Notes under the pieces: generated by a model | What the model saw: the letters and a program-made list of their open reading frames with translations, nothing else | What the model was told of the DNA's origin: nothing | Database searches by the model: none | Source: Oceaniferula flava | Lineage (GTDB): Bacteria; Verrucomicrobiota; Verrucomicrobiia; Verrucomicrobiales; Akkermansiaceae | Reading direction: 5' to 3' | NCBI RefSeq assembly: GCF_016811075.1 | Contig: NZ_JAFBGL010000003.1 | Location: 62,001 to 126,000, forward strand | Length of the DNA stretch: 64,000 nucleotides | Program-made: the position numbers and the translations under genes | Part shown: positions 35,745 to 58,916 of the stretch, in pieces | Position numbering within the stretch: position 1 is the stretch's first letter | Layout: every line of letters starts with the position of its first letter

Positions 35745-36407
35745 ATGCAATCAAATCTTAAAGAGCCGAAAATTGCGATCCACGACGACCTTAGCATTGG
35801 CTACAGGGAGAGTTTGGCATCGACGAGTGGCGAGATCGAGTTGGGTAGTGGAACACACTACTTGTTGGCGCGTAATGGGAGAGGGAAGACTACCTTGTTG
35901 CGCACATTGGCTGGTGTATTGAAGCCGTTAGGCGGTAAATTTTCCTGCGACGGAAGGTGTCAGCTACTTAGTGAAGATTTGACCTTCGATCGCGAGCTTT
36001 CACCCAAGGTGATCTTCAAAAGCATGCTTCCCAAAGCTGGGTGTCGTGAGGCCCTGGAGTTGGCTGACCGGTTGGAATTGGATGTCGATAAATCTTATGG
36101 AAAGCTCTCCACAGGTAATAAGCGCAAGGTGGCGCTGCTTCTTGCCGAGTTCTCTGTGCTGGAGGGGCGTTCGGATATTCTGCTGCTGGATGAGCCTTTT
36201 ACCGGGTTGGACGCATTTGCACGTGAAATTTTTCAAGACCTGTGGGCACGCCGTAGTGACGGTGTGCTTCGCTTAGTGAGCTGTCACCCCGACTTTGATA
36301 GTATGGAGATGAGTAGCTCGATCCTGATTAGCGATGGTCGGATTTCCCATCTTAGTGGGGGTGAAACTCCCAAGTGCTGGGGCGATTTGAAAACTCAACT
36401 GAACTAA
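35745..36407 (+). CDS. ABC transporter ATP-binding protein
   Basis: The 220-residue ATPase has Walker B and D-loop LLLDEPFTGLDAFAR, with the catalytic Glu. The Walker A reads ARNGRGKTTLLR, so the first Gly of GxxGxGKT is Ala. The signature is LSTGNKRK in place of LSGGQ. Both variants occur in some ABC-2 exporters, such as the CcmA and NosF groups. It pairs with the membrane protein immediately downstream. Confidence 0.85.
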   Translation: MQSNLKEPKIAIHDDLSIGYRESLASTSGEIELGSGTHYLLARNGRGKTTLLRTLAGVLKPLGGKFSCDGRCQLLSEDLTFDRELSPKVIFKSMLPKAGCREALELADRLELDVDKSYGKLSTGNKRKVALLLAEFSVLEGRSDILLLDEPFTGLDAFAREIFQDLWARRSDGVLRLVSCHPDFDSMEMSSSILISDGRISHLSGGETPKCWGDLKTQLN

Positions 36408-36409
36408 AA

Positions 36410-37177
36410 ATGCAACTGTATCGATTAACGTTAGCGACTATTTTTCAGCGTAAAGTATGGATTGTCGCACTTTTGAGTGTGCTGCTGTTACCTGTAATCT
36501 TGCCGTATTTGACTCCTTACGAAAGTAATCCGACGCTGGTCCAGCCCGCACGGGCTCAGGCTGCTTGGGTGACATTGTGGGTGGTCGCGGTAGCGTGGGT
36601 CTTTTTCCAGGCGTCACGCTTTGGCGATGATACGGCTCGCTCCGGTATGGGGTCGTATTTTCTCAGCACGGGAATGTCACGTGTTAGCCAGATGCTGCAA
36701 ATTTGGGCTGCATGCATGAGCTATTTAATCCCTCTGGTGGGCGCTGCGTTGGCAGTCTGCTTTGTCGGAGCGATGCCTTCTGGCTCGGAAGAGCGGGGTA
36801 TGTGGATTGTGACCAATTTCCAGTATGCCGCGTTATTTCTGCTAGTAATCGCACCTTTGACGATGTTGGCTATCTCGGTAGGTAGCCGTTTCGGTAGCAC
36901 TATTGGCTATGTGATTCCTCTCTGCCTCAGCGTCTACGGACTGTTTGGGGTCGGTTATTTGGCCATGATGATCAATGTGAGGGAAAATATTTTCTTGGAT
37001 TGGCTCTATGTTCTTTCACCGCACTACCACTTGGCCGACTTAACCCCTCGCTTGGTGTTTAAGCAGGGTAGTATGGTGGGTTCTGAGTTCTTGCAATTGG
37101 TGGCGTATTTCTTGGGCCTCAAACTCGTGCTTTCCATGATCTCGACCGTCTGTTTCCAGACGAAGCCTGCGACATAG
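36410..37177 (+). CDS. ABC-2-like transporter membrane subunit
   Basis: The start at 36410, two bases after the ATPase stop, gives 255 residues and about six membrane helices (first near 18-34, LSVLLLPVILPYL). No specific family is recognised. The coupling with the ATPase shows that they form one transporter. Direction and substrate are unknown. The His/Cys-rich exported protein follows directly, which hints at metal or envelope-component handling. Confidence 0.75.
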   Translation: MQLYRLTLATIFQRKVWIVALLSVLLLPVILPYLTPYESNPTLVQPARAQAAWVTLWVVAVAWVFFQASRFGDDTARSGMGSYFLSTGMSRVSQMLQIWAACMSYLIPLVGAALAVCFVGAMPSGSEERGMWIVTNFQYAALFLLVIAPLTMLAISVGSRFGSTIGYVIPLCLSVYGLFGVGYLAMMINVRENIFLDWLYVLSPHYHLADLTPRLVFKQGSMVGSEFLQLVAYFLGLKLVLSMISTVCFQTKPAT

Positions 37178-37209
37178 GCAGAGTATTTTTTACCCACATT
37201 ATTTTTGAT

Positions 37210-38241
37210 ATGAAAAAATCCATGCAACACCTTACTCTTTCCTGCACGACGCTGTTAGGTTTAACGTTGTGGGGTGGTCTGGCATCTCAGTTTGAAGCCG
37301 AAGACAAGCTGACTTTCGAGCCCAACCCTGGTTGCGTGAAGGGGAGTCCTTATGGGAAAGTGCTTGCTCTCGCAATGCAGGGGCCAATTGATTTTTATTG
37401 GCATCAAGGCCAGACCCACGAACATATCCATATCCTCAATGCGGATGACCACCATGATGATGGTTGCGCGAATTGTGGTCCTGAATGTGAGTCCAAGACG
37501 TCTGGTGACTCTCACGTCGCGCATTCCCATTCGGATCACGATCATAGTCACGGTCATGATCATGACCATGAACAAGCTGATAGTTGTGGCTGTTGTCCTG
37601 AAGAGCCCGCACCGCAGATGGTCACCGCCGAGACTCGTAAGCCTCTGCATACCTTGGCAAAAGAGAGAATCGAGAAAATGGAGGCCGTCGCGCATCGGAA
37701 GACGAATGGCAAGCCGCTTTCTCCTGCGCATCAAAAGTATTTGCAGTCGGTTACCGAAGATAAACTTCGTCTCGCCTATGAATTGGATCCTACGAACTAT
37801 ACGAACTACGGGAACCTTCACTTATTCATCGCGACCACTAATTTTGGCAAAGGTGAAGCTGATGATAGCAAAGCCGTGGCATTAGCTCGGGAGACATTAA
37901 GTTTTTGCCAGCATGAGGAAGTAGATCCCTCTACATGGCTGACCGCCGCGAGCGCTGCCTATAATATTATTTATCATATAGGCCGCTATCATGATCAATT
38001 CTCCGTGGAAGAAGCGAAGGCCAGTTTAGTTGATTTCGATCAATGCATGGAGACTTTCGAGAATCTCTTAATTAAAGCCGTTGAGGAAGGTCGTATAGTC
38101 TCAGAAGCTCGATTTAATGAGCTCAATACTCGAGCCAAATACTTGAAAAAACTGCGCACGGCACAAGGCGTATACATGAAGCGTATGATGTCGACGAAAG
38201 TGGCGGAGCACACCAGCTCTCATCCTCTATCAGTAAAATGA
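37210..38241 (+). CDS. His/Cys-rich exported or membrane-anchored protein
   Basis: The 343-residue protein begins with a hydrophobic segment (LTLSCTTLLGLTLWGG), probably a signal peptide. Residues about 67-130 are very rich in His, Asp and Cys, including CANCGPEC, HSHSDHDHSHGHDHDHE and CGCC, a likely metal-binding loop. The C-terminal two thirds are helical with TPR-like spacing (LRLAYELDPTNYTNYGNLHL). The stop codon overlaps the ATG of the PilT-like gene. No known family is recognised. Confidence 0.65.
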   Translation: MKKSMQHLTLSCTTLLGLTLWGGLASQFEAEDKLTFEPNPGCVKGSPYGKVLALAMQGPIDFYWHQGQTHEHIHILNADDHHDDGCANCGPECESKTSGDSHVAHSHSDHDHSHGHDHDHEQADSCGCCPEEPAPQMVTAETRKPLHTLAKERIEKMEAVAHRKTNGKPLSPAHQKYLQSVTEDKLRLAYELDPTNYTNYGNLHLFIATTNFGKGEADDSKAVALARETLSFCQHEEVDPSTWLTAASAAYNIIYHIGRYHDQFSVEEAKASLVDFDQCMETFENLLIKAVEEGRIVSEARFNELNTRAKYLKKLRTAQGVYMKRMMSTKVAEHTSSHPLSVK

Positions 38242-39713
38242 TTAGCCCCCAGTCAAATAATCCGGCTCCTAGGCCGATCCAACAGATGCCTCCGCAGCCG
38301 ATCAGGCCGCAGCTGGTTGATGATGGTATGCCTCAGATGGCACCTCCACCGATGGCGCCAACTCAGCCTACGCCGGGTCAGCAGCCTCAATCATTGCCGC
38401 CTCAGCATAGCCAGGCAGCTCAGACATTTTCCCATAACCCTCTGCCTCCGACTCAACCAGTGACCGTACAAGCTGCGGATGCCACAGCTACAGCCCCTAC
38501 CTCGTTCCGCCAGGGGATGACAGGTGCAGGTTTGTTAGGAGTTATTTTTCAAGTCTGTGATTCCATGGGGGTATCAGACATCCAAATCCGCTCGGAGCTG
38601 CCGGTCTACATCGAAACTCACAAAGGGATGGAATGCTTGGCCCACCTCGGCGTCTTGAGTTCCGACGATGTTTACAAAATTTATCGCGAACTGCTCAACA
38701 ACCGCGAGTCCGCCAGTCATGGATTTGGCGAAACTGAACCCGCCGCTGATCGCGCGGAGCGCAAAATTGAAGAGGCCTTGGGGTCATTCAAGGAAACCCG
38801 CGTGGACGACTTTTCATGCAACGGTATTTTTGTTGTTGCGACAGGTAAGACTTCCGGGCGTCTTCGGATTCAAGTTCACCTCAGTGCCAATGGACTTGGT
38901 GTGACTTGCCGTATTTTGAACGACAGTATTCCTGAGTTAAGCTCCTTGGGTATCGATCAAGATACCGCCGAAATGTTGCGGCTTGCTGTGCAGCGTCGTG
39001 CTGGACTCTGTTTGGTCACCGGGCCCACAGGTTCCGGAAAATCGACCACCTTGGCTGCCATTATCGATTGGCTGCGCCGAAACCATCCTAAACATATCGT
39101 GACGGTCGAAGATCCTGTGGAATATCAGTATCCGAAGGATATGGATGATCCTCACGTGCCCGGGCAGAAGATCATGGCTCCTAGTATCGTCACTCAGCAG
39201 GAAGTAGGTCGAGACCTGGCATCCTATCGACAGGGGCTTAAGGATGTTCTGCGGAAAGCGCCTCACGTCATTCTACTCGGGGAAATTCGCGATCGTGAAG
39301 CGATGGAAACCTGCATGGAGGCAGCCCAGACCGGCCACTTGGTGCTTTCCACCCTGCACACTACAGGAGCGGTTAAAACCATGGGGCGTATTTTGGAAAT
39401 GTATCCCCGCGAGAATCACCCGGCAGTCCTGAATCGCTTGAGTGAGATTTTAATTTTCATTCACTCTCAAGGTCTCCTTAGCGGGATCAATGGGCGAGTG
39501 CTGACCTACGAATTTTTACAGAATAACGAAGACGCCGTTTCCAGCGCCATTGGCAGTTACGATCGGGGTGCTCGCGCCCTGGAGGATGTGATTAAACGCG
39601 CCGGAAACATTGCCTGGGATGAGAAACTCACCAGTCTTTATGAGGAGGGTAAAATCTCCAAAGAAACATTTGAGAACGCCAGAATGCACCGAGAGGACGT
39701 CAACTACGTCTGA
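38238..39713 (+). CDS. PilT-like secretion/retraction ATPase
   Basis: The 491-residue protein has a Pro/Gln-rich N-terminal region (about 1-95) not found in ordinary PilT. A PilT/GspE ATPase domain follows: Walker A GPTGSGKSTTLAA, the Asp box VEDPVEYQYP, Walker B ILLGEIRDREAMET and the His box STLHTTGAVKTMG. PilT-type ATPases depolymerise pili. Starting inside the previous gene's stop codon, it is translationally coupled to the His-rich protein. Confidence 0.88.
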   Translation: MISPQSNNPAPRPIQQMPPQPIRPQLVDDGMPQMAPPPMAPTQPTPGQQPQSLPPQHSQAAQTFSHNPLPPTQPVTVQAADATATAPTSFRQGMTGAGLLGVIFQVCDSMGVSDIQIRSELPVYIETHKGMECLAHLGVLSSDDVYKIYRELLNNRESASHGFGETEPAADRAERKIEEALGSFKETRVDDFSCNGIFVVATGKTSGRLRIQVHLSANGLGVTCRILNDSIPELSSLGIDQDTAEMLRLAVQRRAGLCLVTGPTGSGKSTTLAAIIDWLRRNHPKHIVTVEDPVEYQYPKDMDDPHVPGQKIMAPSIVTQQEVGRDLASYRQGLKDVLRKAPHVILLGEIRDREAMETCMEAAQTGHLVLSTLHTTGAVKTMGRILEMYPRENHPAVLNRLSEILIFIHSQGLLSGINGRVLTYEFLQNNEDAVSSAIGSYDRGARALEDVIKRAGNIAWDEKLTSLYEEGKISKETFENARMHREDVNYV

Positions 39714-39780
39714 TCAGCGCACGATGGTGTCTTAACACACCGTGGTCTTTAACCACAACAACACAACAAAACAAAAAACA

Positions 39781-40248
39781 ATGAAACTGACAAAAACTGC
39801 TAACACCAAGCTTAAGCCTGGAATGACCCTGATCGAAATCACTGTTGTGATTCTCGTTCTCCTCACCCTGATCTCCGTGCTCTTCATCGGCGCGAACATC
39901 TACAAGAAAGGTGCCGACCGCGCTGCTTGTATCCTCAATATTCGTAACGTTCACCAAGCTGTGCGTGCTAACCAGAACCTCAAAGGTATCAACACTGGCA
40001 CCACATTGACCATGTCTGATGAAATCTATAGCGTTTCTGGTACTGAGCGTTACCTTTCTGAGCCTACATGCCCAACTGCTGGTGGTGCATACACTCCTGA
40101 GACAACTTATCCAGAAGTCGGCACAGCTGCTGTGCGTTGTGCTGAATTCGGTGCTGTCACCGAAGAGGAGCAAACTGCTATTGACGCCGGATCTCAAGAT
40201 GCAAGAGACTTAACCGATCACGTGCCTGAAAACACAAACGGTTGGTAA
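39781..40248 (+). CDS. Major type IV pilin-like protein
   Basis: The 155-residue protein has the prepilin peptidase site KLKPG-MTLIEITVVILVLL, with Gly-1 and Glu+5. The processed N-terminal helix is about 20 residues. The rest is Thr-rich with Cys pairs that could form the pilin disulfide loop. The gene stands alone with a strong hairpin after it, and its leader is A-rich. Both fit a highly expressed major subunit. Confidence 0.86.
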   Translation: MKLTKTANTKLKPGMTLIEITVVILVLLTLISVLFIGANIYKKGADRAACILNIRNVHQAVRANQNLKGINTGTTLTMSDEIYSVSGTERYLSEPTCPTAGGAYTPETTYPEVGTAAVRCAEFGAVTEEEQTAIDAGSQDARDLTDHVPENTNGW

Positions 40249-40277
40249 TCACTAATTAGTTTTTAACTAAAGATCAA

Positions 40278-40313
40278 CCTGTCGCCGGCCTTGTTCGAAG
40301 GTCGGCGACAGAA
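40278..40313 (+). terminator. Hairpin after the major pilin gene
   Basis: CTGTCGCCGGCCTT pairs with AAGGTCGGCGACAG around GTTCG, with one G-T pair. It lies between the pilin and the next gene of the same operon and lacks a strong T-tract, so it probably gives partial termination or protects the pilin mRNA end. Confidence 0.7.
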
Positions 40314-40453
40314 ATCCTCCTCAGGAGAAAATTTAAGGCCAGATAATATCAGGCCTCTAAAATGTCAGTATCGTTAAACGTAACTGTCGTTTGAGATTAC
40401 GGTATGGAAAACCTACGGGTGTAACATCCCTTTCTTTCCCACCCTTACCCGAG

Positions 40454-42235
40454 ATGCCAGAAGAAAAACATCCTTCAGAACTCAACCCACTGCAGCTGTA
40501 TGGGCGTGCCGTGAAGTTGGCGACCAGCACCACACGTTTGAAAAATGGCGATTGGTACAACGACGCTCTGGATCTGGACGTGCAAGTGCACTGTTACATG
40601 AAAGACGAAGGAGGCGTGGATAACTTCCTCCACGTTAAGTCTCGTAATTACTACGAAAAAATCGAGAGCTTAAACTCTCATCAGTTAGAACAATACGAGG
40701 AACTCGAAAAATTTGTTCAAACCACACTTTCCCACGAAGCAGCTAAAGGAGCAAAGTCTCTTGGCATAGTCTTCTATCTGGCCGATGAATTGTCCATCGC
40801 CAGTCTTGGTCCAGAGCACCAAAACCCAGGTGAACTGCAGGACTTGAATTCTAAAATGGTCGAGTCACCCAAGGAGGTTCTCGAGGATAAAACCGTTTCC
40901 ACTGAGTTTCACGCATGGCGGTTATTCCCGTATCCTGGCGCAGCTGCAGGTAATGAATTCGCAACCGCCGTCGCTGTTTCTAGAAAACGAGAAGACACAT
41001 TAAGCGCTCTGCGTGATATCGGAGAGTCTCTTAATCTACCGATCCGCACCGCTGCCCTCAGCGCTCCACTTTGTGCTATCCATGCTCTTCCTTGGTTCTC
41101 CAATGCCGACCCTAAGGGGACAGTTTCAGTATTCAACTATCAAAAATTCACCCTCCTAGCTTTTTTCAACGAGCATTTTGACTTGATGCTGTTCCGCTAC
41201 ATGCCGCATCCGAATGGTGCCACTGTACCAGCAAATATAGGGCCCGCAGTATTAGCTACAGCCACAGCTTTTGAGTTAGAAAACCCAAAAATTCAAATCC
41301 TTCCCTTAAGCGGGGCTGATGTTGATCCAGCCATTATTAGTCTGCAGAGCTCAATGATGGGATCAGAGATTGTTTTGATCGATCTTACCCAAGTTGTTCG
41401 ATCGAGACAACTACCTGATTACTTGCCGGTTGAGATTTTAGCCACGACGCAAGAATTGGATGAAGAATTAAGTCCGTTGGCTGCAAACGAAACATTTAGA
41501 TCATGTATTGAGGAGGGCTGGCACACACAGGATTTCTTGATGCCAAGACCTGAAGAGCTGGAGCTCAGTCCCAGTGAGGCAGATATGAAGCTGTTGAAGC
41601 TGGGCCGTAGGCTGAGAACTGTGGCCGCGATGATCCTTGGTGGAGTGGTGCTCTATACCGGCTTCAACATTTGGACTAAAATCCGCAGTGATGCTTGGAT
41701 GTATAAAACCAAAAATACAGCGGCAACCACTGCAGCTCTGGGTCAACAGCTGAAGCAGTATAATCACTGGGAGAATTTACTTAAAGATCGTTCTAAAGGA
41801 TGGGTGAGTATGGAGTTGATTTCTCGAATCGCGCCTGCTGATGGCTCCGTTGCTTTGAGTGGTGTCATCCATCAGGTAAACCTGAAACCTGAACCAGGCG
41901 CGGCTCAATATGGATTTCAGAAGTCTTGGACGATTGATGGCTATATGAATGCCAAAGGCATGGAACATCTCTCAAATATTGGCACACGTGAAGGAGTCAA
42001 ACAGCTCTTTACCGAAGTTGCTGAATTCACTGGTAACGAGGCTTACCTACCCGATGCAGGAAAACGCGATGTTACAGTAACGTTCAAGCGATTGAATAAC
42101 CCCAAGTTCCACCCTGCAAACCCTACAAAACCCGAACAGCGTTACCCGCACGCTTTTAAGATGACTATCACACAGAGCTTCGGCAGTGACGATAATATGT
42201 CAGTAGCCGATGTCGTGACCTCCGATCAAAAGTAA
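40454..42235 (+). CDS. PilM/PilN-like fusion (GspL-like) assembly protein
   Basis: The start at 40454 (MPEEKHPSELNPLQL) gives 593 residues. The first about 390 residues look like a degenerate actin-like PilM/GspL cytoplasmic domain. One membrane helix (around TVAAMILGGVVLYTGFNIW) and a periplasmic PilN-like domain follow. Order and topology correspond to pilM and pilN joined in one chain. The ATG of the next gene overlaps its stop (TAATG). Sequence similarity to known PilM is weak, so the call rests on topology and position. Confidence 0.6.
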   Translation: MPEEKHPSELNPLQLYGRAVKLATSTTRLKNGDWYNDALDLDVQVHCYMKDEGGVDNFLHVKSRNYYEKIESLNSHQLEQYEELEKFVQTTLSHEAAKGAKSLGIVFYLADELSIASLGPEHQNPGELQDLNSKMVESPKEVLEDKTVSTEFHAWRLFPYPGAAAGNEFATAVAVSRKREDTLSALRDIGESLNLPIRTAALSAPLCAIHALPWFSNADPKGTVSVFNYQKFTLLAFFNEHFDLMLFRYMPHPNGATVPANIGPAVLATATAFELENPKIQILPLSGADVDPAIISLQSSMMGSEIVLIDLTQVVRSRQLPDYLPVEILATTQELDEELSPLAANETFRSCIEEGWHTQDFLMPRPEELELSPSEADMKLLKLGRRLRTVAAMILGGVVLYTGFNIWTKIRSDAWMYKTKNTAATTAALGQQLKQYNHWENLLKDRSKGWVSMELISRIAPADGSVALSGVIHQVNLKPEPGAAQYGFQKSWTIDGYMNAKGMEHLSNIGTREGVKQLFTEVAEFTGNEAYLPDAGKRDVTVTFKRLNNPKFHPANPTKPEQRYPHAFKMTITQSFGSDDNMSVADVVTSDQK

Positions 42236-42774
42236 TGAGTTCCTACTATAAAAATCCAGTTGCCGTATTTGGCTTGATGCTTCCGCTGCTAGGCTTTGCT
42301 GTCTTGGCAGCTGGTGCATTTTACGGTTCATCGACTATCAACAAGAAATTCAAGAAAAAGAAGCGAGTTTACGATCGAGCTCAGGTTGCCGAGAGGGCAA
42401 TGCTTCAGCTACAAGCCAAGGTAGGGCAAAATGGCCCAGCCTTAAAACGCTGGGAAGAACTCATGTCGACAGAAACTCGCAGCACATTTGTTGACCATTG
42501 GAAAGAAGCCGAAGGCAAGCTTAAGGGGACCGAATTCACAAGGGCCCAGCACAACTGGATCAACTATAGCGAAGGTCTTGGTAAAGGAGTGGCTCAGCCA
42601 GCTAGCCAGGTAGAAATGAATTTCGCAGCCACTTACCGGGCAATGCAAATAGCACTACTCGAAATTGAATCCGAATTGCCTCAATTACAACTCGACTCTC
42701 TCACGATGAGCCCTGGAGCGACAGGGGGGAAACTGAACTTCAAAACTACTTTCACCGTATGGACACAAAAGTAA
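42235..42774 (+). CDS. PilO/GspM-like inner membrane protein
   Basis: The 179-residue protein has one N-terminal membrane helix (LMLPLLGFAVLAAGAFYG), a coiled-coil stretch with many Lys/Arg, and a periplasmic domain. PilO and GspM have this shape. It overlaps both the previous and the following gene. The family call is from position and shape only. Confidence 0.55.
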   Translation: MSSYYKNPVAVFGLMLPLLGFAVLAAGAFYGSSTINKKFKKKKRVYDRAQVAERAMLQLQAKVGQNGPALKRWEELMSTETRSTFVDHWKEAEGKLKGTEFTRAQHNWINYSEGLGKGVAQPASQVEMNFAATYRAMQIALLEIESELPQLQLDSLTMSPGATGGKLNFKTTFTVWTQK

Positions 42775-43343
42775 TCATCGCCGCCGTTATCATTGGATCC
42801 AGTGCGATGCAGGCTTCTGCGAATGCGACAGGAGAAACTAAGTCTGAAGAAAAGAGCCAGTTTAATGCTGTTGACGCTAAATTCATGGATCGCGAGGCTC
42901 GGACTAAATGGTTGGCCAAGATGCGTGTGTCTTTGCCCATGGCCAGCCGTGCTTTTGGACCCTTTGGCTATAGTCAGACACCCGGTGCTATTGTCAAGCG
43001 AGTGCAATCCGCACCTAAGCGATCAGACGCTTTTGCGAATGCTATTAAAGCGATCAAAGTGACAGCTGTCATGCCAGGGCAAGACAAGTTCGTTATTGGT
43101 TCTCAGGAGTTTCGAGAAGGGGAGTTACTTCCAGTGATCTTCCAAGGTAAGACGCTAAATGTGAATATTGTCTCCGTTAGAATGGATTACATTCTATTCA
43201 AGGATATGTCCTCTGGAGAGCACGCGAAGCTCCAAATGAATCAACTCCCATCGGGAATGACCAAAGCGAGTGAAATGACGACTGTTCCGGGCATCACTCC
43301 CGTGAACCGCGGCAAGCGCGAACCCTTGGTGATATCTCAATAA
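42759..43343 (+). CDS. PilP/GspC-like periplasmic protein
   Basis: The 194-residue protein has a signal peptide (MDTKVIIAAVIIGSSAMQASA). A domain at residues 100-150 contains KFVIGSQEFREGELLPV, matching the homology-region pattern of PilP/GspC-like proteins that bind the secretin. It lies immediately upstream of the secretin gene, as pilP does before pilQ. Confidence 0.6.
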   Translation: MDTKVIIAAVIIGSSAMQASANATGETKSEEKSQFNAVDAKFMDREARTKWLAKMRVSLPMASRAFGPFGYSQTPGAIVKRVQSAPKRSDAFANAIKAIKVTAVMPGQDKFVIGSQEFREGELLPVIFQGKTLNVNIVSVRMDYILFKDMSSGEHAKLQMNQLPSGMTKASEMTTVPGITPVNRGKREPLVISQ

Positions 43344-43382
43344 ATTTCCTCCGCAAACTACGAACCCACACCCTTACACACT

Positions 43383-45188
43383 ATGAAATTGACCACAGCC
43401 TTAATGTTAGGAGGAATGATTTTTTCTTCCACCGCCATGGCCCAAGATGCACCGGGCTCTAACGTGCGAGTCTCCAAACCTGCATTCACTCCCGGGGGCT
43501 TCGGCGCTGACGGACCAGCCGACTTACCTGGGAATAAGGGGCCTGCTAATCCAAATGATGCCCCAGACGATGCCGGGCCAGGACGCCCCGCAGCCCCTGT
43601 GTCTCCTGACGCTCCCGGAGATGCCCCAACAGAAAATTTACCTGGCGAAGCTCCAGTTGATCCCGATGCGCCGGCAAATCCGGATGTCCCAGTTAATGCC
43701 GATCAAGCCCCTGCTCAGGAAGCCCAATCGATTGAAACTGAAAATGGTGGCTTCCTAATCAAAGAGGCTAACATTAACGATATCTTCCAGCTTTTGGCTC
43801 GACGCGCTGGGAAGCAGTATTTCCATAACAATGCTTTAAATACCGATACCTACAAGGTTACCGGTCACCTCAATGGTGACGGCGGTGCGCTGAAACAAAT
43901 GGAAGAATTGGCCTTCATGTATGGTCTTCGGATGTATGTGAAAGGGAATACGGTTTACGCAATGATGAGTGATCAGTTAGAGCGCCTTCCAGCAAAACAA
44001 TGGACGTACAGCCTAAAGTATCTTCGCCCAACTGATATTGAACAGATCAAAGCATTGATTCAGCCGCTTCTCACCGCAGGACGTGGTGTTGTCAATTATG
44101 AGCCGAAGACAAACACGATTGTTGTGATCGATACGCTGCATCACGTGGAAATGGTTGAAGAGCTTCTTAATAAGGTTGATCGGCCTAAAGGGCAGATTGT
44201 CATCGAAGTCAAAATCCTTCGTGTAAACAGCACCGCTGGTCATAAGTCGGGTGTTGATTGGAGCTCCTCATTAGGCTCAGATGGCGTGTCAGTGGATGTG
44301 ATCCGTAGTCTGAATAGCGTCTTCGGATTTGGCACCGAGTTTACTGGAAGCGCGATTTCAGGTGGTGCAGCAGCAGGATCCACCGAAACCGTCGCTGCTG
44401 ATACTAGTAATATTATTCTGACTCCATTCCAGCTCAGCGGTGTGCTGCGTGCCCTTAATGAAGGAAGTTTGGTCACGCAAAAATCCAACCCAGTGGTCAT
44501 CACCGAAGACAATGAAAAGGCAATTATTTCACTCATTGATCGTGTGCCGATTATTACGTCTACGGTGAATAACACTGGTGACGGAGCAAGTGTTACGACG
44601 GATGAGGTGCGTTATAAAATCGATGAAAGTGACTCCACAGATCCCGATAAAACACGTGAGATTGGTGTGACGATTTCGATTACCCCAAGTGTCCTTCCTG
44701 ATGGAACGATCCGTATGAACATGCGCCCGCGCAATGCTCAGATTGTCGAAGAAATTACAGGGCCTTCCGGTAATACTTATCCTCGCGTCAGTGAGGCGAC
44801 CATTGAGAGTATCGCCAGAATTCCCAACGGCAACTCACTGATCGTCGGTGGTTTCTATGGTGAGAGTAAAGGTAACGATAAGAACAAGGTGCCGCTGCTC
44901 GGAGATATCCCAGTGCTGAACTTCTTCTTTAAATCGAAGCAAACGAGTCGTGAACAATCAAGTTTGGTGTTTGTGGTTACCCCGACATCTTATGACCCTG
45001 CTTGTGTGACAAGTAACAATCGCACAACTGACAGGCTGCGTCACAGCACCGCGGTTCCTAGTGATCATCAATCCATCAATCCGAAAAATCCAGGTGCTGC
45101 GCATGATCCAAACCTTCGTCGCACTATTAATGGTGCGCGCTCATTAACCACTCCAGATGATTATCCGCAAGGATACCCTCAACGCTAA
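43383..45188 (+). CDS. Secretin (GspD/PilQ-type outer membrane channel)
   Basis: The 601-residue protein has a signal peptide ending AMA-QDA. A long Pro/Asp/Ala-rich linker (about residues 25-115) precedes the N0/N1-type domains, including YSLKYLRPTDIEQIKALIQP, and then the beta-barrel secretin domain. The C-terminal signature is present as RIPNGNSLIVGGFYGESK and VPLLGDIPVLNFFFKSK. A further tail of about 60 residues follows. It would form the outer-membrane gate of this machine. Confidence 0.92.
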   Translation: MKLTTALMLGGMIFSSTAMAQDAPGSNVRVSKPAFTPGGFGADGPADLPGNKGPANPNDAPDDAGPGRPAAPVSPDAPGDAPTENLPGEAPVDPDAPANPDVPVNADQAPAQEAQSIETENGGFLIKEANINDIFQLLARRAGKQYFHNNALNTDTYKVTGHLNGDGGALKQMEELAFMYGLRMYVKGNTVYAMMSDQLERLPAKQWTYSLKYLRPTDIEQIKALIQPLLTAGRGVVNYEPKTNTIVVIDTLHHVEMVEELLNKVDRPKGQIVIEVKILRVNSTAGHKSGVDWSSSLGSDGVSVDVIRSLNSVFGFGTEFTGSAISGGAAAGSTETVAADTSNIILTPFQLSGVLRALNEGSLVTQKSNPVVITEDNEKAIISLIDRVPIITSTVNNTGDGASVTTDEVRYKIDESDSTDPDKTREIGVTISITPSVLPDGTIRMNMRPRNAQIVEEITGPSGNTYPRVSEATIESIARIPNGNSLIVGGFYGESKGNDKNKVPLLGDIPVLNFFFKSKQTSREQSSLVFVVTPTSYDPACVTSNNRTTDRLRHSTAVPSDHQSINPKNPGAAHDPNLRRTINGARSLTTPDDYPQGYPQR

Positions 45189-45208
45189 CAGACTGTTACC
45201 CCTCAATC

Positions 45209-45829
45209 GTGAATACCCAACCGCAATTCCAAGCGGCGCCTGAAGAGATCCCCGTATCTGATTTAAGCCCGCGCGCATCCTTGAAGTCCGTGACTCATGA
45301 AGTCCCTATCATTCTCGAGCATGCGTTGATCAGGAACCTGGCAATGCTTCAGCAGCACAACCTAGCTTCGGCTGAGGACTGCAGCCAGGTGGCCGCTCAG
45401 GTCAGACGTAGTTGGGAAAACGGTAGAGGGGCCGATCCTATTGACGGATTGGCGCGGCTACGATCTGGGAATGGTGAGATGCTGGATGCAAGTGTTGAAG
45501 TCATTTCATCAAAAATGGCGAAATCACTGCCTTTCGCTCCCACCCGTGTGCCGTTTGCAGCGCGCTTAATTCCTCCAACTGCATTCTACGAGAAGTTTCC
45601 ACAGATCGAACAGCTTTGCCGATTGATGCTAGTTCCTGTGGCTTTCACCGAGGACTTGGACGTCATTGGTATTGCATCGGTGAATCCGTTTTTTGCCGAT
45701 ACCCTGGCTGTCGCAATCGCGGATGAACTTAAAAAAACAAGCCCCGTTAAACCTATTATCAGCTCTGTCCGACTAGATTACGTCGGGTGGAAAAAAATGT
45801 GTGAAAAGCATTTTCGAGAATCATATTAA
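45209..45829 (+). CDS. Stand-alone MshEN/GspE-N-like domain protein
   Basis: The 206-residue protein starts with GTG at 45209. Residues about 120-195 show the pattern IGIASVNPFFADTLAVAI followed by PVKPIISSVRLDYVGWKK. The neighbouring ATPase has a matching arrangement, VAISNPWSPAADEYVSLRF. This suggests a free copy of the N-terminal domain that precedes GspE/PilB ATPases. Such domains can bind c-di-GMP. Its role here is unknown. Confidence 0.5.
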   Translation: MNTQPQFQAAPEEIPVSDLSPRASLKSVTHEVPIILEHALIRNLAMLQQHNLASAEDCSQVAAQVRRSWENGRGADPIDGLARLRSGNGEMLDASVEVISSKMAKSLPFAPTRVPFAARLIPPTAFYEKFPQIEQLCRLMLVPVAFTEDLDVIGIASVNPFFADTLAVAIADELKKTSPVKPIISSVRLDYVGWKKMCEKHFRESY

Positions 45830-45838
45830 TTACGGATC

Positions 45839-47530
45839 ATGATCGAATTTGAAGGAGTCAGATATAATGCCCTCATCAGCCGCCGCTTGCGACAGGCTCT
45901 TGAGGAACATGACCCCTCGCTAGCCGAGGTGGACTCGGGTCAATTAGAGGCCAAAATCACCAAGAGTGTGTTCATGGCCGCAGTGGCTAAGGTTAATAAC
46001 ATGGCCTTCTTCCCCAAGGTTGCTGACTTCTGTGATGCATCTTTGTTAGAAAAGTGCGATCCCTCAGTTTTGACACGTGGTGGCTTCTCACCCCTCTGTC
46101 TCGATGACAAAAAGATCATTGTCGCTATTTCCAATCCATGGAGTCCTGCTGCAGATGAGTATGTTTCGCTGCGGTTCCCCGAGTTTGAGCTCGTTAAAAT
46201 TGTTACCCTAACATCAGAAATTAGTCGTGCGATTGAGTCTGTTTCTGGAAATACAGGACCGAGTCAGGATGAACTCGAAGCAATTGAAGTCGAGGACACT
46301 GACGATAAAATCAAGGACTTCGACGTCACCAAAGATTACGACGAGCCAATGGCTCAACTCATCGCTACCGTGATGGCCAGTGCTGTCAAACAGCGAGCCT
46401 CTGACATTCACTTTAAGGTGGAGAAGGAAAGTTTTTATTATGCGTTCCGAGTCGATGGAGACATCGGTAAGAAGACAGAGATCCCGATTAAGTTGAAGGA
46501 CCGTCTTGATGCTTATCTGCTGAACTTGATGAAATTGCCTGCGGAAATCCGGAATACTGTTCCCGGTATTTCAGGTCGTTTCACGATTTCCTACTTCCGC
46601 CGTCCCATCGATATTCGTTACGAACGTCACCGAACGTATCGGGGATACCACTTGACAATGCGTTTGTTAGATAAAGGTCACTTAAATGTCACCTTGGGTA
46701 AAGGATCGCTTGCTTTTGATGATCAGACTCTACTCGCGCTGGATAAGGTGATGAAAATCCCTGCAGGGATCATTGTGATGAGTGGTCCGACTGGTTCAGG
46801 GAAGTCAACGACCCTGAACGCCATTCTTCGTGAGATGAACACACCCGATGTGAATATTCTGACGCTGGAAAACCCTGTGGAGGATGAAATCCCTGGGGTC
46901 ACCCACTGTGACCTTAAAAACCCTGGTGAGTTTAAACCCATGATTGCCAGTTTCATGCGAAGTGATCCGGATATTATCCTGATGGGGGAGGTCCGTGATA
47001 TTGAATCAGCGGAACTCGCCATTGAAGCGGCTGTGACCGGGCACAAGGTTCTCACTACGATTCACACCCCTCGAGCATCACAAATCATTGAACGTTTCGA
47101 ACAGCTTGGGATTGAACGTTGGAAAATTGCCCAGACGCTGAAAGCTGCCTGTGCCCAGCGTTTGATCAAAATGCTCTGCCCATACTGCAAGACTGAACAG
47201 CAGGGGATTAATGAAAAAGATCGGGCCATTTACGGTCTCGATGAATCTTGGGCTACGCGCACCGTGTATTCGCATTTGCCCGACGGTTGCCAAGAATGTC
47301 ACGGCTCAGGTTACGCTGGGCGGACGGCGATTCTGGAGATCATTCCGATCACACCAAAAGTATCTGATATGTTATCTAAGGGGGAGATCACGCCCTACGA
47401 ACTTGAATTGAAAATCCAGGAGGAGGGCAAACTGCCGAACCTCCGAAATAATGGTCTGAAATTGTTGATGGAGGGAAAAACCGACATCGCTGCAATTGGT
47501 AAGATGATCGACATGAGTACCGATGAGTAA
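45839..47530 (+). CDS. PilB/GspE-type assembly ATPase
   Basis: The 563-residue protein has an N-terminal MshEN-like domain (about 1-140), then the ATPase: Walker A GPTGSGKSTTLNAI, Asp box ENPVEDEIPG, Walker B IILMGEVRDIESAE and a His box. A tetracysteine zinc motif lies at CPYC and CQEC, as in extension ATPases. It powers pilus or pseudopilus assembly. It lies 9 bases after the MshEN-like gene and overlaps the PilC-like gene. Confidence 0.93.
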   Translation: MIEFEGVRYNALISRRLRQALEEHDPSLAEVDSGQLEAKITKSVFMAAVAKVNNMAFFPKVADFCDASLLEKCDPSVLTRGGFSPLCLDDKKIIVAISNPWSPAADEYVSLRFPEFELVKIVTLTSEISRAIESVSGNTGPSQDELEAIEVEDTDDKIKDFDVTKDYDEPMAQLIATVMASAVKQRASDIHFKVEKESFYYAFRVDGDIGKKTEIPIKLKDRLDAYLLNLMKLPAEIRNTVPGISGRFTISYFRRPIDIRYERHRTYRGYHLTMRLLDKGHLNVTLGKGSLAFDDQTLLALDKVMKIPAGIIVMSGPTGSGKSTTLNAILREMNTPDVNILTLENPVEDEIPGVTHCDLKNPGEFKPMIASFMRSDPDIILMGEVRDIESAELAIEAAVTGHKVLTTIHTPRASQIIERFEQLGIERWKIAQTLKAACAQRLIKMLCPYCKTEQQGINEKDRAIYGLDESWATRTVYSHLPDGCQECHGSGYAGRTAILEIIPITPKVSDMLSKGEITPYELELKIQEEGKLPNLRNNGLKLLMEGKTDIAAIGKMIDMSTDE

Positions 47531-48674
47531 CGCACAAACATCAGCCAGTGGCGGTCTTCGGCGCGTCAATCGCCCCACCGCTGTTCAGACTCCCGCTAAG
47601 CCGAAGCCTCAATCGACGCTTTTTGCTCAGAAAATCAGGCCTTTCAAAAAGAAGGAGTTGGTTCAAATGTTCCGTTCTCTTGCGTCAATGCTGAGGGCTC
47701 AGATTAATACAGCAGATGCTTTAAAATATTACGCTTATGGGCACCCTAACAAGGAGCTTGTGGCTGCCCTGAATAAGATTCACGAGGAAGTGAATAAAGG
47801 GGTTCCCATTCACGATGCGTTCAGGGCATCCGAGCGATTCGATGAGATGACCATTGGTCTCATCCAGGCGGGGGGAGATGCTGGTCAACTAGACACAGCC
47901 TTTGCCGAACTCGGTAAACGAATTAGAAGTGAGCTCTTTTTTGGGAAGAAAATTCGAAAGCTGATCATGATGCCCTGTATTGTGATCCCCATCTTGATTG
48001 GCGCTTTCATTGCCTCTCAAGTGAAAATTGTTCCTCAAGTGGAGAAGATGATGTCTGGGATGGAGCCCAAAGGCTTTGTGGCTTTGTCTTTTAAAATAAG
48101 TCATGTCGTCCAAGATATTTGGGTGCCCGTAGTGCTTACTCTTATTGGGATTGCGATTATTATCTGGAAATCCGATAAAGTGCGAAATGGCATCACCAAT
48201 CTAGCCATGGCCCGTGTCAGGGTGGTCCGTATGATGATTATGAGTCTTCGCCAGATGACGTTGCTCTCCACTATTAAGTTGCTGTATTCCAACGGGATAA
48301 ACCTTGCCAAATCCCTGCGTGTTGCTGCTAACAGTGTGAGAAAAACGCCTTTTTACGCAGAGCTCATCAAAGCCTCGGAGATGTATGAAAAGTCCGGCGT
48401 GCCGGTTTCTTCTGCTTTTGCAAAATACACTTCAGTGGATCCCCAAGTGGTCCACATGCTCGCCATCGGTGAGAAGTCCGCATCGCTAGATGTTCAGCTT
48501 AGTATGCTCTCTGAGATGTTCGAGGAGGACGCTGAGCAATTAATGGATGACTTCAGCCAATTCGTAAGTTTCGTTGTGATGATTATTGCTGTCTTGTTGA
48601 TTGCAGCAGTTTTCCTCGGCACGTTTATGCCGATCTTCATGATGGGGCCTCAGATGATGCAGGAGGCAATGTAA
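47523..48674 (+). CDS. PilC/GspF-type inner membrane platform protein
   Basis: The 383-residue protein has two copies of the GspF domain with three membrane helices. Typical sequence is RSLASMLRAQINTADALKYY in the first and LLSTIKLLYSNGINLAKSLR in the second. ASERFDEMTIGLIQAGGDAG is the conserved loop. Its start overlaps the ATPase stop by 8 bases. Confidence 0.93.
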   Translation: MSNAQTSASGGLRRVNRPTAVQTPAKPKPQSTLFAQKIRPFKKKELVQMFRSLASMLRAQINTADALKYYAYGHPNKELVAALNKIHEEVNKGVPIHDAFRASERFDEMTIGLIQAGGDAGQLDTAFAELGKRIRSELFFGKKIRKLIMMPCIVIPILIGAFIASQVKIVPQVEKMMSGMEPKGFVALSFKISHVVQDIWVPVVLTLIGIAIIIWKSDKVRNGITNLAMARVRVVRMMIMSLRQMTLLSTIKLLYSNGINLAKSLRVAANSVRKTPFYAELIKASEMYEKSGVPVSSAFAKYTSVDPQVVHMLAIGEKSASLDVQLSMLSEMFEEDAEQLMDDFSQFVSFVVMIIAVLLIAAVFLGTFMPIFMMGPQMMQEAM

Positions 48675-48726
48675 GTTTCCTTCTCATCCCTCATTTCTTA
48701 ACGTTTTCCTAACCCTTTGACTCAAC

Positions 48727-49149
48727 ATGCAGCTTACTAAATTTGATCGTTGGCTTAAGGAGAACTTTATTTATGAAACACATATTTTCATTCTGAGACG
48801 CCCAGAGTTTAAACTGCCTTCAGGCGTGAAAATCAGTGAGTTGGATCAAGGTGCTTCAGGAGATTACCGCTTTCGATTACGGATTAAAAATAACAAAAAG
48901 GCAGACCAAACCTTGGCGTTACTCAAAGAACACCAGCTAATGTGCGCCACCCACGTGGTGGAAGGGCGGCATTGGTATAATAAGCGAATAGCTCCAGAGG
49001 GGAAGAGTTTCACATATCAATGGATTCTACGCGGGATCACCAGCGTGCTGATCCTGTGTGCTGCTTATGGTGTGTATGTATTATTCCAAAACCCGCAGCT
49101 CATTTCTACGATCCAAGACACTCTGAATGAACTGAAAGCAGGCATGTAG
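48727..49149 (+). CDS. Unrecognised protein with a C-terminal membrane helix
   Basis: The 140-residue protein has a soluble N-terminal domain of about 90 residues (FDRWLKENFIYETHIFILR) and one membrane helix near residues 97-118. No family is recognised. It lies within the pilus operon, 52 bases after the PilC-like gene. Confidence 0.55.
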   Translation: MQLTKFDRWLKENFIYETHIFILRRPEFKLPSGVKISELDQGASGDYRFRLRIKNNKKADQTLALLKEHQLMCATHVVEGRHWYNKRIAPEGKSFTYQWILRGITSVLILCAAYGVYVLFQNPQLISTIQDTLNELKAGM

Positions 49150-49209
49150 CAGGCTTATTATTTAACTTTTTTTTATGTTCAAGAATCGTTTATATGATAA
49201 TCTTGCAGC

Positions 49210-49635
49210 GTGAAGTTGAAGTTAGACAGTCGAGCGCGGCGTAGGGCTAGAAGCCTGTCCGGGCTGACCCTTATCGAAATCACCGTGGTAATCGTGATTC
49301 TAATCACTTTGATTGGCCTGTCGGTATTCGCAATTGGCGGTTACAATAACTGGCAGCTTGCCGCGGAGGCGTCACAAAAGCTGAAAAAGGTCTACAATGC
49401 TCAGCGCACCTATCTAAGTGAGCACCCTACACAAAGCGTGTCTACGGTCACTGCTGCCCAAATCATTCCTTACCTTTCCGATAAGTCTGATGAGCTACCT
49501 ACGGTCGAGGGCGAAGATGGTAGCCAGTATAGTATCAAAGTCGACGTTTCCCCGCCTGTGATCGTCACATCTTCTGGTGCGGTCTATGATCCGTCAGGTT
49601 CCCCTGATGACGGTCTATGGGATGTAGGTTCCTAA
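49210..49635 (+). CDS. Minor pilin / pseudopilin
   Basis: The start is GTG at 49210. The leader RRRARSLSG ends in Gly-1, followed by LTLIEITVVIVILITLIGL with Glu+5, so prepilin peptidase would cut it. The mature domain is about 125 residues, short and acidic. It lacks the Cys residues of the major pilin, so it is likely a minor pilin. Confidence 0.85.
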   Translation: MKLKLDSRARRRARSLSGLTLIEITVVIVILITLIGLSVFAIGGYNNWQLAAEASQKLKKVYNAQRTYLSEHPTQSVSTVTAAQIIPYLSDKSDELPTVEGEDGSQYSIKVDVSPPVIVTSSGAVYDPSGSPDDGLWDVGS

Positions 49636-49654
49636 CCAAGCCCCAGATAATTTT

Positions 49655-50152
49655 ATGTGTGTAGCTCGTCCATCCCTCGTCATCGCCCTGAGCTCGATCG
49701 CTTCGGTGCTCTTGGCCGCATGGGCCTCCGCCGCGGAGGGGAGCGACCGTCCCGATAAGCTGGCCGAAAGCTACCGACTCATAGGGCATTATCAGTTAGT
49801 TTCCAAGCTGAGGGTAGAAAATAGCCAAGCTGAGGCTGTGGTGATTTCTCCTCTGCGGTATCGGGTTTACAGTGATGGCATGGAAATTCGTGTCTATGTC
49901 CGGTCCTCGGACGAAGATAGTTACACGGCCTATAACATTTACCGGGCAGATGGAATCGGCGTAGCCAAGTCGAGTGGTGAACTTGAGATGGTAGCTGGGG
50001 TGCAGGCATTCAATACCGAAGGAAAGATGCTCCGTCAAATTAGTGTCACCCGGAATAGCCTTACTATGGTAAAAACTCCGCCGCGTTCCCACCGTGTGAT
50101 TATAACCCGAGCCAAAGCCATTCCTGTTTCGGACAACACAACTGGTCAATAA
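49655..50152 (+). CDS. Secreted protein of unknown function in the pilus operon
   Basis: The 165-residue protein starts with a signal peptide (MCVARPSLVIALSSIASVLL, cleavage near ASA). The mature part is beta-rich, with SPLRYRVYSDGMEIRVYVRS. No family is recognised. Confidence 0.55.
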   Translation: MCVARPSLVIALSSIASVLLAAWASAAEGSDRPDKLAESYRLIGHYQLVSKLRVENSQAEAVVISPLRYRVYSDGMEIRVYVRSSDEDSYTAYNIYRADGIGVAKSSGELEMVAGVQAFNTEGKMLRQISVTRNSLTMVKTPPRSHRVIITRAKAIPVSDNTTGQ

Positions 50153-50162
50153 ACAGCTACCT

Positions 50163-50996
50163 ATGAATTCTTCTCTCGAACCGATCCCCACCAAACCAGC
50201 TGTGGTCATTGACGCTACGCAGTCGTCAATCCGAGCAAATGGTGGGCACAAAGCGATGAATCAGTATAAAACACCGGAGTCCGGAGGTCTGGTGAAAGCT
50301 TATCCTTGGTTGCTAGCCACGAGTGTTTGCCTTTCCGGCGTGCTATGTTGGCTCTATGTCACTAAGCCAGTAATGGCACCACTTCATGCCACGCCTGGAC
50401 GTGACGCAGATGTCATTAACATCGCTGAAAACCAAGTATCTCAACCGACCGACAACACTGCTGCCTTACTCCCTTCGGATACGAGTCTTCCTGGAACGGA
50501 ACCTGGTGATCAAACCTCACAGGATCGCAATTCTGATGCCCCACTGAGCATCGACCCCCGAGCTTTAGCAGAGATGGGTGGCGAGGATTCAGACAAGGGC
50601 TGGGAGAGCACCAATTTAAAAGTGCAACATATCCTCAGTGCTGATTCCGGGAGCGGACAGCTGGAAAAAATTATTCTCGATGTCCCAGTGCGATACCAAA
50701 CACGCACCATGCGTTGGACGTCTCACGATATCGAACAAGCAAGAAACGTACTAGGGCGGCTGATGATCTATGAACGAGACCTGCATAACTTGCGCAAGCA
50801 GGGCCAGACCATCCTCAAGGATTGGAATACTCTCTTGGAGCATACCGTGCCGGCTGCAGCGTTGCGGGCTGATAGCCCATCCATACCCTACAATCATGCT
50901 GAACGCCATGATCGAGGCGGACTGCCTGACAGTTCTGCTGTGATCAAAGTAGATAACGCGCCCGTTGAGCCTCAGCAAACGCCCTCTCAGAATTAA
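50163..50996 (+). CDS. Bitopic membrane protein of unknown function
   Basis: The 277-residue protein has one membrane helix around residues 43-62 (YPWLLATSVCLSGVLCWLY) and a long periplasmic part that is low in complexity, then predicted helices (DIEQARNVLGRLMIYERDL). It may be an assembly-platform accessory. No family is recognised. Confidence 0.5.
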   Translation: MNSSLEPIPTKPAVVIDATQSSIRANGGHKAMNQYKTPESGGLVKAYPWLLATSVCLSGVLCWLYVTKPVMAPLHATPGRDADVINIAENQVSQPTDNTAALLPSDTSLPGTEPGDQTSQDRNSDAPLSIDPRALAEMGGEDSDKGWESTNLKVQHILSADSGSGQLEKIILDVPVRYQTRTMRWTSHDIEQARNVLGRLMIYERDLHNLRKQGQTILKDWNTLLEHTVPAAALRADSPSIPYNHAERHDRGGLPDSSAVIKVDNAPVEPQQTPSQN

Positions 50997-51017
50997 CCAC
51001 TTATTTGTTCTTACCTC

Positions 51018-51677
51018 ATGTCAAAACACTCACATCTTTTGCTGTTGCCTATGTTGGCAGGGGCTTTGCATGCGCAGACATTTAACGAAGCACCTCCATC
51101 TACGGTGGATCCTTCTGTGTTGTTAGAGCTGCCTCCGGCCGTGGTCATTGATGAAGACGGGAAAACAGATCCCGTCCTGGTCACTCCGAAAGTCAAAATT
51201 CCAGCAGAAAAGACAGTGAGTGAAGGCGGCACAACCACGGCGAAGTCCACTGACGGGGGGATTGAAATTCAGATTGAAAAAACCAACGCCAAAGCTGGAG
51301 CCCAACAGGGTGGGGGGAATGTGAAAGTCTACTCTCCCTATCCGGCAAAACCCATTTCAAATCCTCCATTAGGTTGGAAATACGCACCCGCCCCGAAAGG
51401 GACTGCTCCATTCCGCACCCAGGTCGTTCTTGCGAGTGGGCATTCAGTGGATTTGGCCATCACTCCCTACGTGCTGATCCCCCAAGCTGACGGGCGGAAC
51501 ATCATCAAAATATCTGAGCCCGGCTACGACGCAGCCAAATCATATAACCAGCAAGATACCGTGGGGGCGATGCTGGAAAACTCGACAGCCGAAATTGAAA
51601 ACCATGAAAAGCAAGCAGCGGCCGCAATCAGTCGGCTCCAGCAATTGCTCTCATCCTTACCTCGATCGCAAAAATGA
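51018..51677 (+). CDS. Secreted protein of unknown function
   Basis: The 219-residue protein has a signal peptide (MSKHSHLLLLPMLAGALHAQ). The middle contains YSPYPAKPISNPPLGWKYAP, which looks like a Pro-rich anchoring segment. A C-terminal helix follows (ENHEKQAAAAISRLQQLL). The stop overlaps the next gene. No family is recognised. Confidence 0.55.
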   Translation: MSKHSHLLLLPMLAGALHAQTFNEAPPSTVDPSVLLELPPAVVIDEDGKTDPVLVTPKVKIPAEKTVSEGGTTTAKSTDGGIEIQIEKTNAKAGAQQGGGNVKVYSPYPAKPISNPPLGWKYAPAPKGTAPFRTQVVLASGHSVDLAITPYVLIPQADGRNIIKISEPGYDAAKSYNQQDTVGAMLENSTAEIENHEKQAAAAISRLQQLLSSLPRSQK

Positions 51678-52189
51678 AAAATACATTACCTATCTTATCA
51701 ACGATGGCTCTCGGCGTAATTGCTGGAGTGACGGGGACTCATTTTCAGCAAGTTTCTAGCATGGTGGCCAATGGCTCTTTGCCTTCTCCTGCCTTAGAAA
51801 ACATACCAGATTCTCCTCATTCAGGTGAGGGCATTCCACGTGAGATTTTGGCATCGCTGACTTCGTCTCCAAGGGTAAGTGATAAACAGATGCAGAGTGA
51901 GCCCGCTGCAGCGAGTTCTCTAACGGTGGACGAAAGAAGTTCTCTCGAGCAAACCTTGCTGACCATTAACGGTAACCTGCAAAGGGTGATGAAGGAAAAT
52001 AGTCACCTGCGGAAACAGCTCTCGGATACCAACCGCGATATGGATGAGCTTACTTTCCGACTTGATTCTCAGAGTGCCAGTTTCCGCCCTTTAAGCACCC
52101 AGCAAGACCGGCCACGTGGTCTGATCACATCACCCTCAACTGGCCTTCCTGCTGCGGATCAGCAGGAACTCCTGCCAGCAAAGAACTAA
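51674..52189 (+). CDS. Membrane-anchored coiled-coil protein
   Basis: The 171-residue protein has an N-terminal membrane helix or uncleaved signal (ILSTMALGVIAGVTGTHF) and a coiled coil around residues 85-133 (QTLLTINGNLQRVMKENSHL, then RKQLSDTNRDMDELTFRL). It is coupled to the previous gene by a 4-base overlap and is the last gene of the plus-strand block. Confidence 0.55.
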   Translation: MKNTLPILSTMALGVIAGVTGTHFQQVSSMVANGSLPSPALENIPDSPHSGEGIPREILASLTSSPRVSDKQMQSEPAAASSLTVDERSSLEQTLLTINGNLQRVMKENSHLRKQLSDTNRDMDELTFRLDSQSASFRPLSTQQDRPRGLITSPSTGLPAADQQELLPAKN

Positions 52190-58345: not shown

Positions 58346-58349
58346 AGTT

Positions 58350-58880: not shown

Positions 58881-58916
58881 ATCGATATGTTTCAGCTGGC
58901 TGTTTTCAGAAATAAG

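Follow-up and report, generated by a model that had tools for sequence, protein, structure and literature searches.

Within the open-access literature searched, the MUL2 pilus of Akkermansia, encoded by Amuc_1098-1102, is the only pilus treated in a recent paper on the Akkermansiaceae (PMC13174399), and the main text of a survey of the type IV filament superfamily (PMC6668835) makes no mention of the Verrucomicrobia or the Planctomycetes. The stretch analysed here, termed the window, comprises 64,000 nucleotides of Oceaniferula flava (Akkermansiaceae; contig NZ_JAFBGL010000003.1, positions 62,001 to 126,000 of the forward strand) and carries at 35745-52189 a block of 18 open reading frames (ORFs; g1 to g18), all on the + strand, with a convergent minor-pilin cassette and its neighbouring genes (d1 to d7) beyond it. 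Block and cassette together probably encode a second, self-contained retractile type IV pilus-like machine, known here from its genes alone. The class of machine is well supported, while its biological role is one that we infer. A sequence-only reading of the window had left the choice between a pilus and a secretion machine; the machine is upheld, and a pilus is preferred because a dedicated PilT-like motor is present.

The locus shares PilB, PilT, PilC, putative PilMNOP-like proteins, a PilQ-like secretin, pilins and a minor-pilin trio with the type IVa pilus (T4aP) of Myxococcus and Pseudomonas, but its ATPases, platform and secretin score far under the equivalog cut-offs, its PilM and PilN are fused, its genes occupy a single locus, at least seven of its proteins are unrecognised and it is confined to one order. 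The type IVb pilus (T4bP; IncI PilN-V) likewise has its secretin, ATPase, platform and pilin encoded at one locus, although PilO2 is present and PilT missing in the IncI stretches examined, and the block PilB and IncI PilQ do not cluster together. The GspL-like fusion, a GspM-like match and an I-J-K-like trio are held in common with the type II secretion system (T2SS), from which the block differs in its dedicated PilT-like ATPase, in a PilB outside the GspE clade and in that no GspG-like major pseudopilin was recognised above cut-off in the block. The MUL2 pilus has the same envelope-core gene order, a protein in which the PilM domain is followed by a transmembrane (TM) segment and a C-terminal domain, and occurs in the same bacterial order; the protein families are nevertheless non-equivalog throughout, the block holds PilT, PilB, PilC and pilins in one locus, and the block system is accessory among relatives in which MUL2 is universal.

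Core components of the machine

The core parts are complete in one conserved locus. PilT-, PilB- and PilC-like proteins and a secretin had been placed on one plus-strand block by the sequence-only reading, and matches above the curated Pfam cut-offs bear this out for g4 (38238-39713), g11 (45839-47530), g12 (47523-48674) and g9 (43383-45188), the ABC ATPase g1 being the fifth gene with such a match. A retractile pilus is favoured because the PilB and PilT pair, the secretin, the alignment complex and the GspI-J-K-like trio are what such a pilus needs.

The PilT-like retraction ATPase g4, which has a Pro-rich N-terminal extension, matches the T2SSE and PilT families, has PilT as its nearest PDB chains and is a PilT family member by homology, though at 247 bits against a curated cut-off of 319; the gene is present in 47/52 loci (locus counts given as fractions refer to scorable loci among the named GTDB contigs). 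The alignment of the family of g11, the PilB-like assembly ATPase (T2SSE, 271 bits), retains Walker A, Walker B and the Cys motif. In small, unrooted trees with few references (only two for T4bP), the g4 family joins PilT (support 99.6/100), the g11 family forms its own long-stemmed clade (100/100), distinct from both PilB/GspE/HofB and IncI PilQ, and the family of g12, the PilC-like inner-membrane platform with two PF00482 stretches, likewise forms a separate clade on a long stem. The extension- and retraction-type ATPases, g11 and g4, both retain their motifs and lie on opposite sides of the ATPase tree. On the PilB equivalog TIGR02538, g11 reaches 301 bits against a cut-off of 675, which is itself strict, as even the canonical PilBs encoded in this genome fall short of it at 587-616; on the GspE equivalog TIGR02533 it reaches 289 bits against 630, and it falls outside the GspE/PilB clade. 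The same-genome paralogues reach 317-427 bits on the PilT model, against the 247 of g4, and the canonical PilC 376-396 bits on the PilC model, against about 113-115 for g12. The secretin g9 (PF00263, E 5.6e-34; PF03958; 50/50 loci) scores near-equally on PilQ (134 bits) and GspD (133).

The PilM/N-, PilO- and PilP-like parts of the sequence-only reading fared differently, PilM/N being recovered by fold, PilO by a sub-threshold match and PilP by gene order and motif. No match to g6 (40454-42235, with a conserved ATG at about 40454) was found in Pfam, NCBIfam or PDB sequences, even when it was searched as a family. AlphaFold modelling on 21 members of the family (pLDDT 86) predicts an actin-like domain, a long single TM helix and a ferredoxin-like domain, which is the fused actin-like/TM/periplasmic architecture of GspL. 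Among the best matches to solved structures, an actin-like protein of Bacteroides without assigned function (Z 13.3) precedes PilM as placed in the Myxococcus T4aP model (Z 11.4), the PilM-PilN complex (Z 11.2) and cytoplasmic EpsL/GspL (Z 11.0), and FtsA scores similarly to these; by this predicted fold g6 is taken as a putative PilM-PilN fusion. The g6 product may be a non-ATPase adaptor like GspL, since the phosphate-2 loop of Amuc_1101-type proteins (DIGAKTTD) is absent from its family alignment. It is followed by the PilO/GspM-like g7 (42235-42774; T2SSM_b, E 0.011; 52/52 loci) and by g8 (42759-43343; 50/50 loci), an exported candidate PilP/GspC-like protein.

Both proposed pilins carry class III leaders, with weak family scores: g5 (39781-40248; KPG^MTLIE; N_methyl E 0.024; 49/50 loci), which likely starts at the ATG at 39781, and g14 (49210-49635; SG^LTLIE; weak PilA/GspG N-terminal matches; 13/14 loci). 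Gaps of at most 60 bp occur at 16 of the 17 gene junctions in the block, and one co-directional unit is plausible; the claim that overlapping starts tie most of the genes together did not hold, with overlap at only five or six junctions. The largest gap follows g5, at 142 bp by the ORF list and about 205 bp to the conserved start of g6 (40249-40453). It contains a terminator-like hairpin site that might keep pilin transcripts at a high ratio to those of the machine. No Rfam or tRNA match was obtained in the window, and the frequency of promoter-like sites was not above that in shuffles.

The convergent minor-pilin cassette

The coordinates first proposed for the system delimit a real but incomplete block, with related genes continuing downstream to about 60407. 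A d6-d5-d4 prepilin trio lies convergent with the block on the - strand at 55764-59180. The gene d4 (55764-57803) encodes a large (679 aa) PilX/GspK-like minor pilin, recognised by leader alignment and co-occurrence; d5 (57800-58345; GG^FTLMEM) is a minor prepilin with an N_methyl match above cut-off and an aligned leader, adjoining d4 in nearly all loci examined, and d6 (58350-59180; PG^SMLVEM), whose ORF start is probably over-long, has conserved leaders and adjoins d5 in nearly all loci examined. Glu5 is kept in d5 and d6 and absent in d4. Glu5 in two prepilins and none in a large third is the pattern of GspI-J-K and PilV-W-X. With the leaders of g5, g14, d5 and d6 and the PilX-like d4, the class III prepilins and minor pilins of a T4aP are present. 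A comparison of d4-d6 with the NCBIfam 'Verru_Chthon cassette' gave no match.

The d4 gene is found in 30/30 system-positive and 3/28 system-negative relatives (Fisher p 1.9e-13, a value inflated by kinship among the genomes). Three families (f1, f2 and f4) each hold both states, and d4 tracks the system in every case; the three d4-positive, system-negative genomes (G003, G005 and G047) are fragmented assemblies of 82-92% completeness. This co-occurrence goes beyond what linkage would explain, since about a dozen genomes have the trio on a different contig from the block or some 0.6-2.7 Mb away from it. The order d6-d5-d4 is kept in nearly all loci examined, often with the exported d1-d3 and d7 alongside, and the trio is therefore treated as part of the machine. 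Several d4 paralogues occur in one genome (G026; matches on C16, C39, C7 and C41) and two tandem trios in another (G041, locus L229), an arrangement that would suit exchangeable tips. The comparison of loci also places beside the trio, all on the - strand, the exported acidic protein d1 (52355-53617) and the exported d2 (53691-54386), which often adjoin it, the exported d3 (55143-55721), paired with d1, and the exported d7 (59502-60407), often upstream of the trio in Akkermansiaceae in a looser association. These four are likely partners of the machine.

Distribution and inheritance

In 20 relatives, ranging from congeners to members of other Verrucomicrobiales families, the order ABC ATPase, permease, g3, PilT, pilin, PilM-N, PilO, PilP, secretin, g10, PilB, PilC, g13, pilin recurs with few exceptions, more than expected by chance, and it is preserved down to about 21-28% protein identity. 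Core genes were recovered from 46-52 of 47-52 loci, in contigs of Haloferula, Roseibacillus, Rubritalea, Luteolibacter, Brevifollis, Prosthecobacter and many metagenome-assembled genomes (MAGs). Cultured carriers of the block include Haloferula rosea, Luteolibacter marinus, Rubritalea marina and Brevifollis gellanilyticus. The genes g15-g18 occur in about 35-46 loci, mostly of Akkermansiaceae.

PilM-N is encoded in 30/58 relatives (25/45 high-quality genomes), against Amuc_1101 family matches in 58/58, weakly so in a few fragmented genomes. In a sample of the phylum, a full-length PilM-N match was obtained in 18/387 genomes, all in two families of the Verrucomicrobiales, and a nineteenth genome gave a marginal partial match. 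PilM-N is absent from 20/20 listed genomes of the genus to which A. muciniphila belongs, a genus identified by an Amuc_1100 homologue (genome G168) that shares a sequence stretch with PDB Amuc_1100. The system is restricted to the order Verrucomicrobiales, where it is found in environmental relatives; of the earlier idea of a system adapted to the phylum, lineage specificity stands and a phylum-wide occurrence does not. Six MAG records titled Akkermansia muciniphila (L105, L122, L126, L136, L143 and L146) carry the system at 26-34% identity to the window, and these titles are probably wrong because the genomes of the genus containing that species are without it.

The tree of PilM-N is congruent with that of Amuc_1101 (Mantel r 0.75, 0/2000 permutations, a value that includes the G025 tip with its anomalously long branch in the Amuc_1101 tree, perhaps a wrongly chosen ORF), and this agreement suggests that inheritance has been largely vertical, with losses. 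The G+C content is 49.1% in the block and 53.1% in the window, though the PilM-N tree suggests vertical inheritance. A plasmid origin was rejected, with no plasmid match to the PilB query at >=60% identity.

ABC module and unrecognised proteins

The first two genes, unnamed in the sequence-only reading, encode an ABC transporter. The g1 product (35745-36407; 35/46 loci) is an ATPase of the ABC-2 exporter type with a PF00005 match above cut-off and conserved Walker A, signature and H-loop, while g2 (36410-37177; 37/46 loci), with a conserved start MQLYRLT at about 36410 in the family alignment, is a polytopic membrane protein and probable ABC-2 permease by a weak ABC2_membrane_3 match and alignment. 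The exported, His-rich g3 protein (37210-38241; 39/48 loci) aligns in an N-terminal motif NPxGxKxSPYG and a conserved helical C-terminal domain. The His- and Cys-rich stretch between them (37390-37650), variable in length among relatives and absent in some, is possibly a metal-binding linker. The module g1-g3 is present in about 76-81% of loci. In one locus of family f4 (L074) the ABC module and PilT lie at its opposite end, and they are therefore regarded as separable modules. ABC transporter genes (pilGHI) also occur in Myxococcus T4aP clusters (PMC6060248), and may be seen as an analogy for g1-g2.

As had been claimed, at least six exported or membrane proteins are unrecognised, at 36374, 37210, 48727, 49655, 50163, 51018 and 51674. 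For g3, g10, g13 and g15-g18, nothing convincing was found in Pfam or NCBIfam under the settings applied (Pfam only for g16-g18), and none matches a standard pilus or T2SS subunit. The soluble g10 protein (45209-45829), between secretin and PilB, is conserved in 48/48 loci and gave no family, PDB or profile match. Its pattern PV..aed..ig.as.NP raised the idea of a stand-alone MshEN (PilB N-terminal) domain, which is kept as an idea only, as Pfam on 28 members, a PDB profile and two hhalign tests were non-significant. The g13 protein (48727-49149; 39/47 loci) is predicted to have a ferredoxin-like domain, probably cytoplasmic, and one C-terminal TM segment (AlphaFold pLDDT 83.5); the model has only common ferredoxin-like fold matches (Z at most 6.2), and no family is assigned. 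The remaining genes encode an exported protein (g15, 49655-50152), a single-pass membrane protein (g16, 50163-50996), an exported protein (g17, 51018-51677) and a membrane-anchored coiled-coil protein (g18, 51674-52189), present in the loci of about 46, 43, 35 and 41 relatives, respectively, with the last three supported by alignment.

Alternative functions

Several observations weigh against a retractile pilus: the sub-cut-off PilT score of g4, which in our own reading also has no recognisable AIRNLIRE motif, presumably expected of PilT; the weak assignments of PilO and of PilP, the latter not detected by search; pilins identified from their leaders only; a g13 not found in the Verrucomicrobiaceae clade in the locus survey; and the suitability of the PilM-N fusion and GspM-like match for a T2SS too. 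A type II-like system, whose pseudopilus piston would export enzymes or the g15, g17 and d1-d3 proteins, could accommodate the GspL-like g6, the GspM-type match of g7, the GspI-J-K-like d4-d6 and the many exported proteins close by. The fusion does not discriminate between the two, as the pilus protein Amuc_1101 also has a TM segment after its PilM domain. Separate T2SS-type genes are encoded elsewhere in the genome, at C3:373k and in the C8:203.5k region (L054), the latter with a GspD-type secretin and pseudopilin-like genes resembling a T2SS. With a PilT-like ATPase in nearly all of the loci, and PilT usually absent from T2SS (PMC6668835), secretion is an unlikely function for the locus.

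A DNA-uptake (competence) pilus would need PilB, PilT, PilC, a secretin and minor pilins, all of which are present; no ComEA, ComEC or DprA was seen in block or cassette, and the system has a patchy distribution across relatives, every one of which retains another pilus, which makes this role more doubtful still. A copy or variant of the MUL2 pilus, suggested by the shared order of pilin, PilM-N, PilO-like protein, small protein and secretin and by PilM-N proteins alike in length and architecture, can be set aside, as all five Amuc_1098-1102 equivalogs (NF042912, NF042425, NF038287, NF045709 and NF042424) score above the NCBIfam cut-offs at a complete MUL2 locus in the same genome (C1:342397-349905; L055), while among g5-g9 only the secretin matches, at 65 bits against the 750-bit Amuc_1098 cut-off, and g6 and g7 have no significant profile similarity to Amuc_1101 and Amuc_1100 (weak tests with single-sequence templates). 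An ancient common origin of block and MUL2 is possible. The genome further encodes four canonical PilT-type, two PilB-type and one GspE-type ATPases, with PilC/GspF; two tandem PilB/GspE-type ATPases beside one PilC (C4:277647-280540; L050) possibly serve the MUL2 pilus.

Proposed assembly and use

In the retractile pilus proposed here, the shaft prepilins g5 and g14 and the tip prepilins d4-d6 would be processed by a shared prepilin peptidase, a gene for which is present elsewhere in the genome. The d6-d5-d4 trio would prime and cap the fibre, leaving the large d4 exposed at the tip, where it would probably contact the target. Polymerisation would be powered by g11 through g12, the fused g6 together with g7 and g8 would link the motor to g9, the secretin by which the fibre would exit the cell, and g4 would drive retraction. 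The g10 and g13 proteins are probably cytoplasmic cofactors of motor and platform, and g1-g2 with g3 would make up an accessory module separable from the rest. The fibre is likely used to attach retractably to surfaces or particles, a role favoured because aquatic Akkermansiaceae show enrichment on particles (PMC13174399) and because the tip protein is large and is duplicated in two genomes (G026 and G041). The fibre may alternatively serve in twitching or, less probably, in DNA uptake.

More tentatively, the machine could be a class of its own within the type IV filament superfamily, distinct from T4aP, T4bP, MSH, T2SS, Tad and Com. Such a class, at present a doubtful proposition, would be marked by its own motor pair, a PilM-N without the phosphate loop, the ABC module, the new cofactors g10 and g13, and a dedicated, exchangeable tip trio encoded at a second locus whose position varies. 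It would stand a fair chance of recognition once rooted trees and experiments exist.

The locus is real and conserved, and adds a second type IV pilus-like machine, restricted to one order, to the known Akkermansia pilus, on which work on attachment in the Akkermansiaceae has so far centred. It offers several strongly conserved protein families without assigned function and a natural comparison for identifying the indispensable parts of a type IV machine. With this second machine in many environmental Verrucomicrobiales and not in the Akkermansia genomes examined, attachment and life on particles may use a different fibre, and its absence from the gut genus becomes a testable question.

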